Shown piece after piece: positions 2 to 18,999 of a stretch of 33,308 nucleotides of DNA. The translations under genes were made by a program, and so were the position numbers. Source of the stretch: an uncultured Rhizobiaceae group bacterium. Its GTDB lineage: Bacteria > Pseudomonadota > Alphaproteobacteria > Rhizobiales > Rhizobiaceae. The notes under the pieces were generated by a model. That model was not told where the DNA came from and did not search any database. It saw nothing but the letters and a program-made list of their open reading frames with translations. Position 1 is the first letter of the stretch, and every line of letters begins with the position of its first letter. The DNA lies in NCBI GenBank assembly GCA_937944165.1, contig CALDZF010000267.1, positions 1 to 33,308 of the forward strand. Direction: 5' to 3'.

Positions 2-352
2 CAATCGTGTGAGTTCAAAGCACCGTTTGATGGTCGCGTCGTAGAGCTAAACGCAGAAGTGCATGAATTTCCGCCTGCAGATAGGCCATTAATAGTCGTT
101 ATTAATGATAGCGCTCTTGAGATGGAACTGGTTGTTCCTTCAAAGTGGCTACGCTGGATAAAACTGGATACTACGATGGAGATTACAGTGGATGAAACAG
201 GTGAGAGTGGTATTGGTAAGGTAGTACGCATTGCTGCGGAAGTTGACCCGGTCAGCCAGACGGTAAAAATTATTGCTTCCTTTACTAAAAAGCCGGCTAC
301 AGTCTTAGCTGGTATGAGTGGGACAGTAAACTTCAAGCCGCAGAATAATTGA
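2..352 (+). CDS. HlyD/RND-type periplasmic adaptor protein, C-terminal part (5' truncated by window edge)
   Basis: Frame is open from the window edge (QSCEFKAPFDGRVVELNAEVHE...VDPVSQTVKIIASFTKKPATVLAGMSGTVNF*). It has a lipoyl-like 'APFDGRV' and a beta-barrel/MP-like ending typical of membrane fusion proteins. Stop TGA at 350-352. Confidence 0.7.
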   Translation, partial: QSCEFKAPFDGRVVELNAEVHEFPPADRPLIVVINDSALEMELVVPSKWLRWIKLDTTMEITVDETGESGIGKVVRIAAEVDPVSQTVKIIASFTKKPATVLAGMSGTVNFKPQNN

Positions 353-1746
353 GCGAGAGAATGAACGCCCAATTTCCACCACCTGAAACTACACGTACTA
401 AAAAAGTGCATGCTGAAGAAACTCAGAAGGCATCAAAAGTGGAGGCACTTCTTTTGCTTGAAGCAAAAGTAAGAGAAGCACATACCCTTGCAGAGCTTCA
501 ATTCTTAATTGCAAATGAGACACGCAAGCTTATTCAATGTCGACAAATATTAGTGCACAGAAGTTCACCTGAAAAATCCAGTTGGCGCATTGAAAAAGTT
601 TCTTCTGTCACAGAAGCAGACCGTAATGCTCCCTTGTTAAAATGGCTTCATAAACAGATTAAAGACAATATCTTAAATTCGGACAAAATAGATAAAACGT
701 CTGTTGTCTTGAACTTGAAAAGCATAGACAAACAAGAAGAATACCCATTCAAAAAAGGTATTTATGTACCCTTTAAAGACCGTGACGGCTTTGAATTAGG
801 TGGCATTTCTTTGTTGTCTGAAGGTCATATTCTTGAGCAGGATACTGTTATGGCGGAACGCCTGGCATCAACTTACGAACATGCTTGGTCAGCTTTAAAA
901 CCAAAGTCGAAGACAGGCTGGTATTTATTCACAAAGCGTAATTCCATAATGGTGTGTGCTATAATAGTTTTATTAGGTATTTTGCCTGTTCCTTTAACGG
1001 TGCTTAGCCCGGTAGAAGTTGTCGCACGTGATGCCTCAATCATTGCCGCACCAATTGAAGGAGTTGTGGAAGAGATTTTGGTTGCTCCCAACTCTGTCGT
1101 AAAAAAGGGTGATCTGCTTTTTAGATATAATCCGCTTGAGTTTAAAAACAGATATGACCTTGCCAGCCGTAGCATGGCAGTTGCAAGTGCTAGATACCAA
1201 CGTGCTTCTCAATCCTCTTTTGGGGGTGGAGATGGACGCCGCGAACTTGCGGTAACAAAAGCAGAATATGAAGTGGCAAGGGAAGAAAAAAATTTTGCAG
1301 CCGAACAATTAGCACTTGTGGAGGTTAAGGCACAAGCTAATGGCATTATTCTTTTCTCTAGCAAAAGCGATTGGGTAGGACGCCCAGTCGTAATTGGTGA
1401 GCGCGTGATGCGTTTGGCAGATGGACGTAGTACAGAATTTAAAATCAAGGTACCGGTTGGCGATTCTATTATACTAAATGAAAATGCTACTGCACGCGTC
1501 TTCCTTGACTCTGACCCTTTAAATCCAATGGATGTAAAAATTATACGTAAAAGTTATGCGGCTGAAAAAGAGGGTAATGAGCCTTTGGCTTTTCCAATTA
1601 CCGCCAGGCTTGAAGATATAAATCGCACAGACGAACTGCGGATAGGCCTTCGTGGCATGGCGCAACTGTCCGGGGAAAAAGTGCCCCTTGCCTTCAATCT
1701 TTTTAGAAAGCCCCTTTCAGCAATTAGACAATATTTAGGATTATAA
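349..1746 (+). CDS. GAF-like domain fused to a single-TM HlyD/membrane-fusion-like adaptor
   Basis: 465 aa ORF with a TTG start overlapping the upstream stop (TTGA); alternative ATG at 361. An N-terminal ~180 aa soluble region is followed by TM 'NSIMVCAIIVLLGILPVPLTVLSPVEVV', then lipoyl-like 'IIAAPIEGVVEEILVAPNSVVKKGDLLFRY' and an adaptor-like C-terminus. Confidence 0.65.
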   Translation: MSERMNAQFPPPETTRTKKVHAEETQKASKVEALLLLEAKVREAHTLAELQFLIANETRKLIQCRQILVHRSSPEKSSWRIEKVSSVTEADRNAPLLKWLHKQIKDNILNSDKIDKTSVVLNLKSIDKQEEYPFKKGIYVPFKDRDGFELGGISLLSEGHILEQDTVMAERLASTYEHAWSALKPKSKTGWYLFTKRNSIMVCAIIVLLGILPVPLTVLSPVEVVARDASIIAAPIEGVVEEILVAPNSVVKKGDLLFRYNPLEFKNRYDLASRSMAVASARYQRASQSSFGGGDGRRELAVTKAEYEVAREEKNFAAEQLALVEVKAQANGIILFSSKSDWVGRPVVIGERVMRLADGRSTEFKIKVPVGDSIILNENATARVFLDSDPLNPMDVKIIRKSYAAEKEGNEPLAFPITARLEDINRTDELRIGLRGMAQLSGEKVPLAFNLFRKPLSAIRQYLGL

Positions 1747-1774
1747 AACAAACAATAGTATTAGGGCTATAGTA

Positions 1775-3916
1775 ATGAGTTCCCAAGTAAAGAGTAATGA
1801 TGAGGCACAAATGCCTCTGCCAAAGCTGCGTGAAGATTTAATCATTGAACCTGCTGGTTCTTTTTTAAATGGCAGCCCAAGTTGGTTAATTCACGATCCG
1901 GTTCGAGGCCAGTTTTTCCGAATAGGTCAATCGACCTTGGAATTATTGAGCCTGTGGAAATCCGTAAGTCTTGAGCAGTTTTCAGAATTTGCATCAAAAC
2001 ATTTACAAAAAGAAATTTCCACAGATGAAATAGAAGAACTCGTCAAATTTGCATTTGCTAATAATCTGACAGTTGAGCCTGCAGGGGGCGATTATACTGC
2101 ATTTGCTAAGCAACAAAAAGCCAAACAAAAAGGGCTTTTATCAACGCTTACACATAGCTATCTGTTTTTCAGGATACCACTGTTTAATCCTCAACCAATA
2201 TTAGATTTTATGTGGCCGTTTATGCGACTTTTCTTTACTCGCACTACCTTGATAGCGCTTGCATTTTTAATGGTTGTTTCTCTTTATTTAGTGTCGCGGC
2301 AATGGGAGGTGTTTACCTCTACTTTTCTATCTTTCCTCTCTTTTGAAGGTGCGCTTTTTTATGGTGTAAGCTTGGTGTTACTCAAGTTCCTACATGAATT
2401 TGGTCATGCCTTTATGGCCAAAAAATACAATGTTTCAGTACCCATTATTGGGGTTGCCTTTCTTGTACTTTTCCCCGTGCTTTATACAAGTACAACAGCA
2501 GCTGTCAGGCTTAAAAGTCGTAAAAATCGTTTGATGATTAATATGGCTGGTATAATGGTGGAGTTGGCCGTAGCAATTATCGCTACGCTTTTTTGGGTAT
2601 TTTTACCCGATGGACCAATGCGCTCCATTGCCTTTACAACGGCTAGTCTTTCATGGGCTTTAAGTTTGCTGGTCAACCTTAATCCATTTATGCGTTTTGA
2701 TGGATACTATATTTTAAGTGATGCATTAGGCGTTGAAAATTTACAAGAACGCAGCTTTGCGTTTGCCAAATGGCGAATGCGTGAAGCACTTTTTAAACCA
2801 AATTTGGCGCCTCCAGAAATTATTAATACAAGCTTGCGAAAAATCCTAACATACCATGCGTGGGGAACTTGGATCTATCGGTTTTTCTTATTCTTGGGGA
2901 TAGCACTACTTGTCTACAGTTTCTTCATTAAAGTTATCGGTATTGTTTTATTTGTTATTGAAATTGTTTGGTTCATTTTGCTGCCTGTGTGGCGTGAAAT
3001 AAAGTTTTGTTGGAAAAATAAAGGAGATTATAAAACCATGCGTAGCGTTGTTTCGGGCTTTTTGTTCTTTTTAGTTCTTGGTGCTTTATTTGTACCTTGG
3101 TCATCCAGGGTTGATGTGCCTGCGGTTATAAAAGCTTCAAATGAGTATCACATTTATCCACCTTTGGATGGTAAAATTATAAACCATAATCTGAAGGAGA
3201 AACTGTCAATTAGACAAGGTGAAATATTGTTTGAACTGGCCTCACCAAAGCTTGATGCCGATATTCGTATTTCAGATAAACGCAAGCAACTTTTGCAGAC
3301 GCGCCTTAATCGTGCGGCAGCAAGTGAAGTTGAACTTGCTTCTTTAACAATATTGCAGGCAGAACTTGATGCAGAAAACCAAAACAACAAAGGGTTAAAA
3401 ACCAAGAAAACAGAACTTGTCTTTCGCGCACCTTTTACAGGAACGTTAACCAATGTGGATAGGGAATTGCATGAGGCTCAATGGCTTTCGAGTAAAAATC
3501 CTGTTTCCATTTTAATTGACCAATCATCAATACAGTCTTCAGGACTTGCAAGTGCTGAATCTGTTTCTCGTATGAAGATTGGGCAGATGGGGTATTTTAT
3601 CGCGGATGGTTTCTTCCAAACTAAAATTCCAGTAAAAGTGTCAGCAATTTCTGAGATAGCAGAGGCAACTTTAAATGATGATATTCTGTCCGAGACAGAA
3701 GGTGGGCTTGTGCCTGTAACAAGCGGTCATGAAGCCGAAAGCAAACTACTTGGTACTTGGTTTAGAATTGAACTTGAGATTACGAACTTGCCAGATGATT
3801 TTAACTTAAGTTCTGAAATGCGCGGTGTAGCGATTATCAAGGCTGAACCGAAAAGTTTTGCTTCACGCATCTTCCGTCAAATTGCCTCAGTATTAATTCG
3901 CGAGAGCGGCTTTTAA
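1775..3916 (+). CDS. PqqD-like / site-2-protease (M50) / HlyD-like fusion membrane protein
   Basis: 713 aa. N-terminal PqqD-like region (SPSWLIHDPVRGQFFRIGQSTLELLSLW). Zinc motif HEFGH (codons at 2393-2407) and second M50 motif NLNPFMRFDGYY (around 2675-2710) in a multi-TM core. C-terminal lipoyl/HlyD-like region (HIYPPLDGKIINHNLKEKLSIRQGEILFELASP). Confidence 0.8.
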   Translation: MSSQVKSNDEAQMPLPKLREDLIIEPAGSFLNGSPSWLIHDPVRGQFFRIGQSTLELLSLWKSVSLEQFSEFASKHLQKEISTDEIEELVKFAFANNLTVEPAGGDYTAFAKQQKAKQKGLLSTLTHSYLFFRIPLFNPQPILDFMWPFMRLFFTRTTLIALAFLMVVSLYLVSRQWEVFTSTFLSFLSFEGALFYGVSLVLLKFLHEFGHAFMAKKYNVSVPIIGVAFLVLFPVLYTSTTAAVRLKSRKNRLMINMAGIMVELAVAIIATLFWVFLPDGPMRSIAFTTASLSWALSLLVNLNPFMRFDGYYILSDALGVENLQERSFAFAKWRMREALFKPNLAPPEIINTSLRKILTYHAWGTWIYRFFLFLGIALLVYSFFIKVIGIVLFVIEIVWFILLPVWREIKFCWKNKGDYKTMRSVVSGFLFFLVLGALFVPWSSRVDVPAVIKASNEYHIYPPLDGKIINHNLKEKLSIRQGEILFELASPKLDADIRISDKRKQLLQTRLNRAAASEVELASLTILQAELDAENQNNKGLKTKKTELVFRAPFTGTLTNVDRELHEAQWLSSKNPVSILIDQSSIQSSGLASAESVSRMKIGQMGYFIADGFFQTKIPVKVSAISEIAEATLNDDILSETEGGLVPVTSGHEAESKLLGTWFRIELEITNLPDDFNLSSEMRGVAIIKAEPKSFASRIFRQIASVLIRESGF

Positions 3917-3967
3917 AACTCCCAATATTTCCATAAAGTATCTCTCACAGGTTTGAGGAGAAACTTT

Positions 3968-5164
3968 ATGGATTTAACTTTTAGCGATGCTGAAAATAAT
4001 TTTAGGCAGGAAGTTAAGGCTTTTCTTAATGAAAAACTATCAGAGCGTCTTTCCAGCAAAGTTAAATTGGGTAAGCGTCTTAATAAAGATGATATGGTTG
4101 AATGGCATTCAACTTTAAATGTACAAGGCTGGCTTGCTGCAAATTGGCCTGTTGAACATGGCGGTACTGGTTGGACAGCGGTTCAAAAACATATCTTTGA
4201 TGAGGAATGTTGGGCAGCAGGCGCACCACGAACAGTTCCTTTCGGTCTTAATATGCTCGCCCCTGTCTTGATGAAGTTTGGTAGCGAAGAGCAAAAGGCA
4301 CATTATCTGCCACGTATTCTGGATGGAACAGACTGGTGGTGTCAGGGATATTCAGAACCTGGGGCTGGTTCTGATTTAGCGTCTTTAAGAACCTCTGCCG
4401 TTAAACAAGGCGATCATTATATCGTTAATGGGCAAAAGACCTGGACAACGCTTGGGCAATATGCGGACTGGATATTTTGCCTGGTTAGGACATCAACACA
4501 GGGTAAGCGTCAGGAGGGTATTTCATTTCTGCTGATTGATATGAATACGCCAGGCGTAACGGTTCGCCCGATTATTCTGATTGATGGCGAACATGAGGTG
4601 AATGAAATTTTCTTTGATGATGTTAAGGCTCCTGTTGGTAACTTAGTTGGAGAGGAAAACAAGGGTTGGACATATGCCAAATATCTTTTGACCCACGAGC
4701 GTACGGGTACGGCAAACATAGGCAATTCAAATGCAGCCCTTGCCAAGTTAAAACATATAGCCTCGCAGCAAATTAAAAATGGCAAGCCTTTAAGTCACGA
4801 CCCATATTTTGCGGCACGTATGGCAAAGGTGGAAATTGATCTTAATGCACTTAAGACAACTAATCTTCGTATTTTGGTTGAAGCAGATAGTGGTGCCGCG
4901 GCTGGACCAGAAAGTTCCATGCTTAAAGTTAAAGGTACAATTATCAGGCAAGAATTAAACGATCTTACGCGACGTGCCCTTGGGCCATACGCTCTTCCGT
5001 TTTCTTCCGAAGCGATGGAAGAAGGTTATAACGAAGAACCGATTGGCCCTGATTATGCTAATTCGATTGCTGCTAAATATTTTAATAATCGAAAGATGTC
5101 TATTTACGCGGGCTCAAACGAAATTCAATGTGAAATAATCACCAAAACCAAATTGGGATTGTAA
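3968..5164 (+). CDS. acyl-CoA dehydrogenase family protein (putative catalytic subunit of a pair)
   Basis: ACAD motifs WCQGYSEPGAGSDLASL, DHYIVNGQKTWTT, THERTG, IYAGSNEIQ. ORF track starts at TTG 3953, but ATG 3968 is preceded by a GAGGAG Shine-Dalgarno. Confidence 0.85.
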   Translation: MDLTFSDAENNFRQEVKAFLNEKLSERLSSKVKLGKRLNKDDMVEWHSTLNVQGWLAANWPVEHGGTGWTAVQKHIFDEECWAAGAPRTVPFGLNMLAPVLMKFGSEEQKAHYLPRILDGTDWWCQGYSEPGAGSDLASLRTSAVKQGDHYIVNGQKTWTTLGQYADWIFCLVRTSTQGKRQEGISFLLIDMNTPGVTVRPIILIDGEHEVNEIFFDDVKAPVGNLVGEENKGWTYAKYLLTHERTGTANIGNSNAALAKLKHIASQQIKNGKPLSHDPYFAARMAKVEIDLNALKTTNLRILVEADSGAAAGPESSMLKVKGTIIRQELNDLTRRALGPYALPFSSEAMEEGYNEEPIGPDYANSIAAKYFNNRKMSIYAGSNEIQCEIITKTKLGL

Positions 5165-5167
5165 ACT

Positions 5168-6283
5168 ATGGATTTTAAACTCAATGAAGATCGCCGAATG
5201 CTCTCAGATACACTAGGGCGTTTTCTGGCTGATAATTATGATATAGAAAAACGCCATGGCTTTGTAATGCAAGAAGATAGTTTCTCACGCGAGATGTGGG
5301 AGCAATTTGCGGGGCTTGGTGTGATTGGCGCACTGTTTAACGAAGAAGCAGGTGGTTTTGGTGGTGAGGGTGCTGATTTAATAGTCGTGTTTGAAGCACT
5401 TGGGCGTCATCTGGTGGTCGAGCCTTTTTTACCGACGTTATTAGCTGGCACTATTTTAGCAAACCTGGGAAATCAAAAAGGTTTACTGGAAAGTGTTATA
5501 AGTGGTGAAGCTTTATTAGCACTTGCACATGGTGAGCCTGCCTCACGCTATGAGATGTCTTTAGTTGATACGTCTGCGAAAAAATCAGGTAATGAATGGA
5601 TTATTGACGGTAATAAATCTGTTGTTATGGGCGCGGGCGCGGCAACACACTTAATCGTTTCTGCAAGAACTTCAGGAAACGACAATGAAGAAGAAGGTAT
5701 ATCGCTATTTCTTGTAGATAAAGCCAAGGGTGTTACGACTAGAAACTACAGCACACTAGATGGTTATGGCGCAGCCGAAGTTAATCTAGCAGATGCAAAA
5801 GGTGTTTTATTGGGTCGTGAGGGTGGTGGCTTTGAATTTATCGAACAGGCGTTTTCTACAGGCATAACTGCAATATGTGCTGAGGCATTGGGTGCAATGC
5901 ATGTCGCTACAGACTTGACAGTGGAATATACCAAGCAGAGAAAACAATTTGGCGTACCAATTGGAAAGTTTCAGGTGTTGCAACATCGTATGGCTGATAT
6001 GTTAATTGAGCTTGAGCAATTACGTTCCAGTATTATCAATGCGGCAGGGAGTTTGAATTCACAGCGCCTTGTGCGTGAGAGAGAAACCTCAGCTTGTAAA
6101 TATCTTGCCGGTTCTATAGGTAGACAAATTGCAGAAGAAGCCATTCAAATCCATGGTGGCATGGGAATGACTTGGGAATATTCAGTAGGCCACTTTGCAA
6201 AGCATATTATTATGATAGATCATGTCTTAGGCGACACAGATCATCATTTAGAACGGTACATCAAACTTGGATACTCACATTAA
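5168..6283 (+). CDS. acyl-CoA dehydrogenase family protein (second subunit)
   Basis: 371 aa ACAD fold: 'GVIGALFNEEAGGFGG', 'YTKQRKQFGVPIGKFQVLQHRMADM', 'AIQIHGGMGMTWEY'. Starts 3 nt after the upstream stop. Confidence 0.85.
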   Translation: MDFKLNEDRRMLSDTLGRFLADNYDIEKRHGFVMQEDSFSREMWEQFAGLGVIGALFNEEAGGFGGEGADLIVVFEALGRHLVVEPFLPTLLAGTILANLGNQKGLLESVISGEALLALAHGEPASRYEMSLVDTSAKKSGNEWIIDGNKSVVMGAGAATHLIVSARTSGNDNEEEGISLFLVDKAKGVTTRNYSTLDGYGAAEVNLADAKGVLLGREGGGFEFIEQAFSTGITAICAEALGAMHVATDLTVEYTKQRKQFGVPIGKFQVLQHRMADMLIELEQLRSSIINAAGSLNSQRLVRERETSACKYLAGSIGRQIAEEAIQIHGGMGMTWEYSVGHFAKHIIMIDHVLGDTDHHLERYIKLGYSH

Positions 6284-6300
6284 ATTTAAGGAAAATAATC

Positions 6301-6765
6301 ATGAGCACTATTGAATCTCGTCTTGCTGATATGGGGATTACAATCCCAGAACCCAGCGCACCATTGGCTGCTTACGTTGGGCATGTTGTACACAATGGCA
6401 TTGTAACAGTTTCGGGTCAGTTACCACTTGTGGGTGGTGCGTTATCACAAACAGGTTTATGTGGTGCAGGTGTTAGCGTTGAAGAGGCTGCCGCTGCAGC
6501 ACAAATTTGCGCTATTAACATTCTAGCCCAAGTCAAGGTTGCTTGTGGTGGTGATTTGGAACGCATAGAACGTTGCATTCGTTTAGGAGGCTTTGTTGCT
6601 TCTACACCAGACTTTACCGATCATCCAAAAGTTATAAACGGTGCATCTGAATTTATGGGTGCAGTATTGGGTGAAAAAGGCGCACATGCCCGGGCAGCTG
6701 TCGGTGTGGCTGCATTGCCGCTTAATGCATCTGTTGAAGTTGAAGCTACTTTTGCAATTTCATAA
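6301..6765 (+). CDS. RidA/YjgF family protein
   Basis: 154 aa from ATG 6301 (upstream extension to 6172 overlaps the ACAD gene and is unlikely). Motifs '[19 protein letters not shown]' and '[21 protein letters not shown]'. Confidence 0.8.
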
Positions 6766-17773: not shown

Positions 17774-18475
17774 ATGATGCATCCTAAAGTCATGGTTGTT
17801 GAGGATGAAGAGGCGCTCTCGGAATTGCTCAAGTATAATCTGGTAGCTGAGGGGTATGAAGTTGAGATTATTGATCGTGGTGATGATGCGGTATTAAGAT
17901 TACGTGAGACGGTTCCTGATTTGCTTTTGCTGGATTGGATGTTACCTGGCTTATCTGGTATAGAGCTTTGTCGACGTGTTCGTATGCGTAAAGAAACGCA
18001 AGCTTTGCCAATTATAATGTTAACTGCACGCAGTGAAGAGTCTGAACGTATTCGCGGACTTTCTACTGGGGCTGATGATTTTGTGGTAAAGCCATTTTCT
18101 GTCCCTGAATTAATGGCGCGAATTAAAGCGATGTTGCGTCGTTCTAATCCAAATAAAGTTTCTTCTCGCTTAAAAGCCGGTGATATAGAAATTGATAAGG
18201 AATTACACCGGACACATCGTAACGGCCGTGAAGTGCGCCTTGGCCCAACAGAATATAAATTGCTGGAATTTTTAATGAGCGCCCCTGGCAGGGTGTTCTC
18301 ACGTGAGCAGCTGTTGGATGGGGTTTGGGGGCGTAATAATTATGTTGATGAACGCACTGTTGATGTTCATATAGGGCGTTTGCGCCGTTCAATTATAAGA
18401 GGTAAGGAAAAAGACCCGATCCGCACAGTGCGCGGATTGGGGTATTCATTAAATGATAAATTTTTAAAAGCCTAA
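17774..18475 (+). CDS. phoB: Phosphate regulon response regulator PhoB
   Basis: REC domain 'MVVEDEEALSELLKYNL...LLLDWMLPGLSGIELCRRVR' and winged-helix 'GPTEYKLLEFLMSAPGRVFSREQLLDGVWG...TVRGLGYSL'. Confidence 0.95.
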   Translation: MMHPKVMVVEDEEALSELLKYNLVAEGYEVEIIDRGDDAVLRLRETVPDLLLLDWMLPGLSGIELCRRVRMRKETQALPIIMLTARSEESERIRGLSTGADDFVVKPFSVPELMARIKAMLRRSNPNKVSSRLKAGDIEIDKELHRTHRNGREVRLGPTEYKLLEFLMSAPGRVFSREQLLDGVWGRNNYVDERTVDVHIGRLRRSIIRGKEKDPIRTVRGLGYSLNDKFLKA

Positions 18476-18957
18476 CCGTTAGCAGCGCGTTTTACACGTC
18501 GACGGTCAGTAACTGTTTGATAAGCCATACGGCAATGATATTCGCAATATGGTGCATCATCCTTTGGCGAATTACCGCAGAAGTGAAAATCATCTGTCGA
18601 AGGATCACCGTGCGGCCATTTACATGTCTTTTCGGTCAGATCCACCAAATCCAGTTTTTTGCATACAGGCACAGGAATATCTTCAATGATTTGCCTTGCT
18701 GGCATTGAAGGTGCTGTGCGACCCGTTTTGGCCATAGGCCTTGGTCGTGCATTGTAACTGCCGCTAGTGCGAGCAGGTGTTCTTGCTTTTCTATTGCTGC
18801 TTGCAGGTTTTGCACGGCCTGAAAGCCCGAGTCTGTGTACTTTTCCGATTACTGCATTGCGAGTTACGCCACCTAACTCTGCTGCAATTTGGCTAGCGCT
18901 TAATCCATCCGCCCATAATTTACTAAGCGTAGCTACCCTGTCATCTGTCCAAGACAT
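18472..18957 (-). CDS. gcrA: GcrA family cell cycle regulator
   Basis: 'MSWTDDRVATLSKLWADGLSASQIAAELGGVTRNAVIGKVHRLGLSGRAKP' is the conserved GcrA N-terminus. C-terminal 'CKWPHGDP...FHFCG...APYCEYHCRMAYQ'. Start chosen at MSW, preceded by GGAGA. Confidence 0.95.
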   Translation of the reverse strand: MSWTDDRVATLSKLWADGLSASQIAAELGGVTRNAVIGKVHRLGLSGRAKPASSNRKARTPARTSGSYNARPRPMAKTGRTAPSMPARQIIEDIPVPVCKKLDLVDLTEKTCKWPHGDPSTDDFHFCGNSPKDDAPYCEYHCRMAYQTVTDRRRVKRAANG

Positions 18958-18999
18958 GTGTCTCAATCTCCGAATTTTGCAGAATCCGCCCCCGTTCTC

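Follow-up and report, generated by a model that had tools for sequence, protein, structure and literature searches.

At the left edge of a 33,308-nucleotide stretch of DNA from an uncultured Rhizobiaceae bacterium (hereafter the window, which is the entire contig CALDZF010000267.1, or C267, of assembly GCA_937944165.1), three linked genes encode a HlyD-type adaptor, a GAF-HlyD fusion and a PqqD-like/M50/HlyD fusion. They close a five-gene operon headed by the gene of a giant repeat protein, and we consider it rather likely that this operon is an export apparatus for giant surface proteins of the immunoglobulin (Ig)/cadherin type. The evidence lies in a gene order conserved over several phyla, in the co-occurrence of the machinery with giant proteins that carry the domain DUF4347, and in an N-terminal leader motif that tracks the machinery. 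These findings bear on how giant surface proteins devoid of a Sec signal leave the cell without a co-encoded ATP-binding cassette (ABC) exporter.

A five-gene operon joined across two contigs

All three genes that an initial annotation of the window had placed at positions 2–3916 are present there and, as it had remarked, the window truncates the operon on the left. The 5′ part of the first adaptor gene was located on contig C121 of the same draft genome (2.8 Mb, ~85 percent complete): the end of C121 (G000:C121) and the start of the window share an exact overlap of 141 bp, and the reading frame of the adaptor is continuous over the junction. C121 carries, in this order, a giant open reading frame (ORF), a TolC-like gene and the beginning of the gene for the HlyD adaptor. 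The giant ORF (5781 to about 22070) encodes 5,429 amino acids, with an N-terminal DUF4347 followed by Ig/cadherin-like repeats; a search of this protein for RTX repeats gave no match. The TolC-like protein is 85 percent identical to that of a relative and begins with a lipoprotein-type signal, and the adaptor begins with a Sec-type signal (both judged by eye). The join is supported by relatives with longer contigs (loci L018, L019, L020, L022, L023 and L025), which keep these genes clustered as far as the contigs reach. Thus, the operon comprises genes for the giant protein, a TolC-like channel, an HlyD adaptor, the GAF-HlyD protein and the PqqD-like/M50/HlyD protein. The channel and the giant repeat protein were among the partners that the annotation had proposed to seek upstream of position 1. 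Another, a small precursor of a ribosomally synthesized and post-translationally modified peptide (RiPP), was not seen there.

Homologous loci were collected by an alignment-based scan of contigs, which yielded 80 named loci from several phyla; the same scan with a single protein as query returned nothing. At these loci, where many contigs end nearby, a GAF-HlyD homologue was present in 77 cases (no more than 300 bp away from the M50 gene in 70), the first adaptor in 70, a recognizable outer-membrane factor in 48, and either DUF4347 or an ORF of 1,500 or more amino acids in 56. The hosts include Rhizobium, Phyllobacterium, Azospirillum, Methylobacterium, Pseudomonas, Nitrospira and Pelagibacteraceae, and the order of all five genes is found again in Rhizobium, Azospirillum, Nitrospira and plasmids of E. 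coli. In Pseudomonas, the last three genes lie beside a giant gene located downstream of the M50 gene, and the outer-membrane factor immediately upstream mostly escapes the model. Plasmid records with the operon come from Azospirillum, Citrobacter and E. coli, the latter two sources being listed together as L217 (NZ_CP081687.1) and L185 (NZ_CP142906.1). The E. coli plasmid holds a complete operon of exactly giant, TolC, adaptor, adaptor and M50 genes, flanked by insertion sequence elements, and its 4,459-residue cargo has both DUF4347 and a leader (LESRQLFDGA). On the conjugative plasmid of Citrobacter, the operon is likewise complete and lies ~6 kb from tellurite-resistance genes. Among complete E. 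coli genomes, 24 of 5,426 have the machinery genes. This conservation, revealed by the neighbourhood survey that the annotation had suggested, excludes a chance arrangement.

A leader motif that accompanies the machinery

Nearly all DUF4347 proteins adjoining the machinery start with a short, often basic stretch, followed by a leader motif with the consensus LE(P/Q)R(I/M)(M/L)FD(G/A)A..AT, or LE(P/Q)RxxFD(G/A)A in its shorter form. In nearly all of these giant proteins, no hydrophobic segment of a Sec signal precedes the motif. The leader was located by a motif search of ORFs, and within a set of 3,621 ORFs it occurred in 55, against 0.05 expected by shuffling. The giant protein of the window genome has LEQRLLLDAA at residue 45. 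The leader corresponds to the motif of the NCBIfam domain LEPR-XLL (NF012209), here positioned before DUF4347. With this model, the giant of the window genome reaches 14.1 bits, under the curated cut-off of 17, and its homologue at locus L026 reaches 18.9 bits; a family search of the window genome returned nothing, most likely because a model of 24 positions hardly attains an E value of 1e-3 in a genome.

A survey of 385 genomes of the class linked the giant proteins to the machinery. DUF4347 was found in 19 of the 24 genomes with the M50-HlyD protein and in 18 of the 361 others (Fisher P = 8e-18), and the leader was present in 11/12 DUF4347 proteins of M50-positive genomes versus 0/19 of M50-negative ones (P = 1e-7), both statistics being inflated by shared ancestry. 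Leader-bearing DUF4347 proteins include copies away from the operon (L165, L172 and L176). Moreover, some proteins adjoining the machinery carry the leader without DUF4347 (L086, L107, L139 and L182). Those at L107:234-6043 and L182:726-3683, beside the M50 operon, are ~980 residues long with the leader LEKRLMLDAS and, judged by sequence, are a second kind of candidate cargo; within this pair, a Micavibrio-type genome has two such proteins in tandem. Because the DUF4347 proteins of M50-negative genomes lack the leader and some neighbours other than DUF4347 proteins have it, the leader tracks the machinery and not DUF4347.

In the AlphaFold model of the cargo, residues 1–104 are disordered and DUF4347 is well folded. 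Among solved structures, DUF4347 comes closest to the type VI effector Tce1 of Pseudomonas aeruginosa (PDB 9qpe), followed by legumain and caspases, which assigns the domain to the clan-CD cysteine-protease fold. Tce1 shares this caspase-like fold and is delivered by a type VI system, whereas DUF4347 here follows the leader of a giant protein. When the PDB was searched by sequence with the DUF4347 alignment, matches to designed TIM barrels proved spurious and the DUF4347 entry genuine. The Cys of the putative catalytic dyad is invariant and the His is replaced in some members, including some from Nitrospirota; such copies may be inactive.

Domain architecture of the operon proteins

All three window proteins match HlyD/RND-type adaptor families (Pfam HlyD_3 and NCBIfam; RND, resistance-nodulation-division). 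The third one, the 713-residue M50 protein, also matches Peptidase_M50 (E value 4e-7), and both Pfam families were recovered in 52/52 diverse homologues. As stated in the initial annotation, its core retains the HEFGH and NxxPxxxxDG motifs. Residues H207, E208, H211, N301, P304, D309 and G310 are unchanged in all 93 full homologues, a count somewhat biased by the derivation of the genome-scan seed patterns from these very motifs; the class-survey loci, which were found without motif seeds, agree. In one additional homologue, Met replaces the Pro of the second motif. Both motifs are located in membrane helices, as in M50/site-2 proteases, and Asp309 is predicted to be the third zinc ligand. By these sequence features the M50 active site is intact, and proteolysis is predicted.

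The AlphaFold model of this protein (predicted local distance difference test score 88) is confident and places a β3-α3 unit at the N-terminus, a helical core in the membrane and an adaptor at the C-terminus, upholding the M50 and PqqD-like architecture. Foldseek matched the adaptor portion to MacA, AcrA, MexA and ZneB (E values down to 9e-12), and the same portion gave profile matches among PDB sequences. The HlyD-like C-terminus claimed earlier is thus confirmed by both sequence and structure comparison. For the model as a whole, Foldseek listed adaptors only and is uninformative on PqqD.

Pfam PqqD (PF05402) matched none of the 52 M50 homologues. Nevertheless, comparison of residues 14–104 by hhalign with a PqqD profile, built from PqqD sequences taken from related genomes, gave a probability of 93.7 and an E value of 1.9e-7. 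In the controls, 40 shuffled profiles reached at most 2 percent, and seven further blocks of the M50 protein gave nothing. The predicted order of elements at residues 23–95 is β-β-β-α-α-α. Profile and model together support the PqqD-like N-terminus read by the annotation, a domain invisible to Pfam. Domains of this kind serve RiPP pathways by binding leader peptides.

For the second protein, the annotated GAF-HlyD fusion was upheld in its HlyD part, and GAF was recognized by way of homologues: Pfam GAF gave no match in the window protein itself and matched 6/49 homologues (best E value 2e-6). The GAF-like N-terminus is probably cytoplasmic. The annotated ORF starts with TTG at 349, and the ATG at 361, which fits the start in relatives, is likely the true start codon. 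Two operon proteins appear to combine a cytoplasmic recognition domain (PqqD-like or GAF-like) with a periplasmic adaptor.

Some related operons are damaged. In G010 (L020, G010:C13:137000-156000), the genes of the giant, GAF-HlyD and M50 proteins are interrupted by several frameshifts or stops, and the M50 gene of G001 (L019, G001:C71) has one stop. Either the operon has decayed in part of the genus or the assemblies contain errors.

Table 1 Features of the export operon and its candidate cargo. Coordinates are those of the window unless a locus is named.
Feature	Position	Strand	Support or remark
HlyD/RND-type periplasmic adaptor, C-terminal part	2..352	+	HlyD_3, E 5e-17; remainder on C121
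GAF-like/one membrane helix/HlyD-lipoyl fusion	349..1746	+	HlyD_3, E 2e-9
PqqD-like/M50 intramembrane metalloprotease/HlyD fusion, 713 aa	1775..3916	+	
PqqD-like (RRE-like) winged-helix domain, residues 14-104	1814..2086	+	hhalign and AlphaFold
HEFGH zinc/catalytic motif, residues 207-211	2393..2407	+	H, E, H invariant in 93/93
NLNPFMRFDG motif, residues 301-310	2675..2704	+	N, P, D, G invariant in 93/93
Periplasmic HlyD/membrane fusion protein portion (barrel-sandwich, helical hairpin), residues about 443-693	3101..3853	+	Foldseek
Cargo DUF4347 analysed	L031:6099-6554		Caspase/legumain-like fold
RRE, RiPP recognition element.

Proposed export route, alternatives and neighbouring genes

The route that we envisage would begin in the cytoplasm, where the disordered N-terminal leader of the cargo would be bound by the PqqD-like domain, perhaps with the assistance of the GAF-like domain. 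At the inner membrane, the M50 core would bind or trim the leader, and the three HlyD parts together with the TolC-like lipoprotein would form a conduit to the surface. In such a route, a membrane protease with a leader-binding domain would take the place usually held by an ATP-driven pump. Speculatively, DUF4347 may process the cargo after export. The annotation had thought a machine that recognizes, cleaves and exports a peptide or protein plausible; the TolC-like channel, the giant protein and the tracking of the machinery by the leader fit that idea, of which cleavage and binding of the leader by the PqqD-like domain are putative steps. We hold more tentatively, as a possibility short of even odds, that this is a separate secretion pathway, in which a PqqD/RRE-like domain fused to a protease reads the LEPR leader and the cargo passes through its own HlyD/TolC conduit, with neither an ABC exporter nor an extra SecA.

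Several observations weigh against export of giant proteins by this operon. DUF4347 was not found in 5/24 M50-positive genomes; the cargo may be broader than DUF4347 proteins, or incomplete genomes may lack it. In one of the M50-positive genomes (G408, L167), the leader is degenerate. The association between leader and machinery partly reflects common descent of these DUF4347 proteins, although descent alone would not explain well a spread over several phyla. The GAF assignment is weak in the window protein and comes from its homologues, the catalytic invariance is partly a product of the motif seeds, and the loss of the dyad His in some members makes autoprocessing of the cargo doubtful.

Ordinary type I secretion offers another explanation. 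Type I systems, such as LapBCE/LapA and SiiCDF/SiiE, export giant adhesins, and their genes may be unlinked; an ABC exporter encoded elsewhere might therefore export the giant protein, with the operon merely assisting in leader trimming, surface retention or release. ABC genes do lie within 10 kb at 17/80 loci. The operon itself, however, has no dedicated ABC exporter and encodes an outer-membrane factor and three adaptors of its own. The single ABC gene examined, in Pseudomonas (L114), stands beside an importer-type permease (BPD_transp_1), a LysR regulator and a separate set of major facilitator superfamily (MFS), HlyD and outer-membrane efflux protein (OEP) genes, and was rejected as a dedicated exporter. 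Type I secretion signals are also usually C-terminal, whereas the conserved motif of the cargo is N-terminal. We regard this explanation as unlikely; what the operon has in common with type I adhesin systems is an HlyD adaptor, a TolC conduit and a giant repeat cargo, and the fusion of M50 to an adaptor sets it further apart.

Equally unlikely in our judgment is that an additional SecA-type ATPase, unlinked here, drives export through the M50/HlyD/TolC assembly. The idea derives from the module predicted by Kamneva, Poudel and Ward in 2015 (PMC4452313), which, in the excerpted text of that paper, consists of GAF-HlyD, M50-HlyD and HlyD/lipoyl genes, sometimes an OEP gene, and a secondary SecA_DEAD gene, with no ABC gene. 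A SecA_DEAD search of M50-positive genomes, single-contig ones included, found one full-length SecA and no second one in nearly all; the other matches were ~65-residue fragments in proteins of roughly 700 residues and a split extra SecA_DEAD in G404. The window genome has one full-length SecA and a 66-residue fragment match, its completeness being 85 percent and complete relatives agreeing, and SecA was found at 0/80 homologous loci. The housekeeping SecA could still serve export.

The 2015 prediction is the closest precedent. In the same excerpts (PMC4452313), the M50 protein is proposed as a possible inner-membrane pore and the biological role of the module is called completely unknown. Co-encoded GAF-HlyD, M50-HlyD and HlyD genes and the absence of an ABC transporter are common to both. 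This locus and the window genome differ in having no secondary SecA_DEAD, and the excerpts make no mention of a giant LEPR-leader cargo, of a link between leader and machinery or of a PqqD-like domain. Full-text searches of open papers, with subscription papers and preprints outside their scope, turned up none on the leader or on the module's cargo, and none linking these to the module. The leader, the cargo and a version without the extra SecA seem to be new. The earlier description of the system as under-described is right, although its machinery gene set had already appeared in 2015 as a predicted module.

Maturation and export of a small RiPP-like peptide is very improbable. It would account for the PqqD/RRE-like domain and for the best NCBIfam match of the protease, the daptide intramembrane metalloprotease (NF041824; E value 3e-34), but the score of 119 bits is far from the equivalog cut-off of 300, and no small precursor or modification enzyme was noticed at the loci, which usually pair the protease with a giant protein. 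Compared with the RiPP proteases of the daptide and YydH/LiaK (NF058609) families, the M50 core is homologous over residues 38–401, including part of the N-terminal domain; the window protein scores far under both cut-offs, has an added HlyD portion and accompanies a giant cargo. We give scarcely any credence to an ordinary drug- or metal-efflux adaptor set: all three proteins resemble HlyD/RND_mfp, yet the operon has no RND, MFS or ABC pump and instead encodes a conserved protease core and a giant cargo.

If the export of giant proteins through a leader-reading PqqD-like domain is correct, RRE-type, RiPP-style leader recognition has been adapted from small peptides to proteins of thousands of residues. 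The LEPR-XLL domain, which the NF012209 record describes by name only and which gives very large repeat proteins the same motif at their N-terminus, gains a likely meaning, even though the window genome's giant falls under its cut-off. The pairing of leader and machinery provides a testable rule across soil, plant-associated, marine and nitrite-oxidizing bacteria and some E. coli plasmids.

Immediately 3′ of the operon, at 3953–6765 of the window, lie two acyl-CoA dehydrogenase genes and a RidA-like gene, whose position is kept in two relatives. The first gene is 90–92 percent identical in these relatives and the second about 75 percent; the operon is only about 60 percent identical in the same two, indicating that it evolves much faster than its neighbours. 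A GcrA-like cell-cycle regulator gene, recognized from its translation, is located at 18472–18966. In Pseudomonas sp. GM18, mannosyltransferase-like (PMT_2) and sulfotransferase-like genes stand between the M50 and giant genes (L114:13851-16428), and modification of the giant protein by their products is possible.

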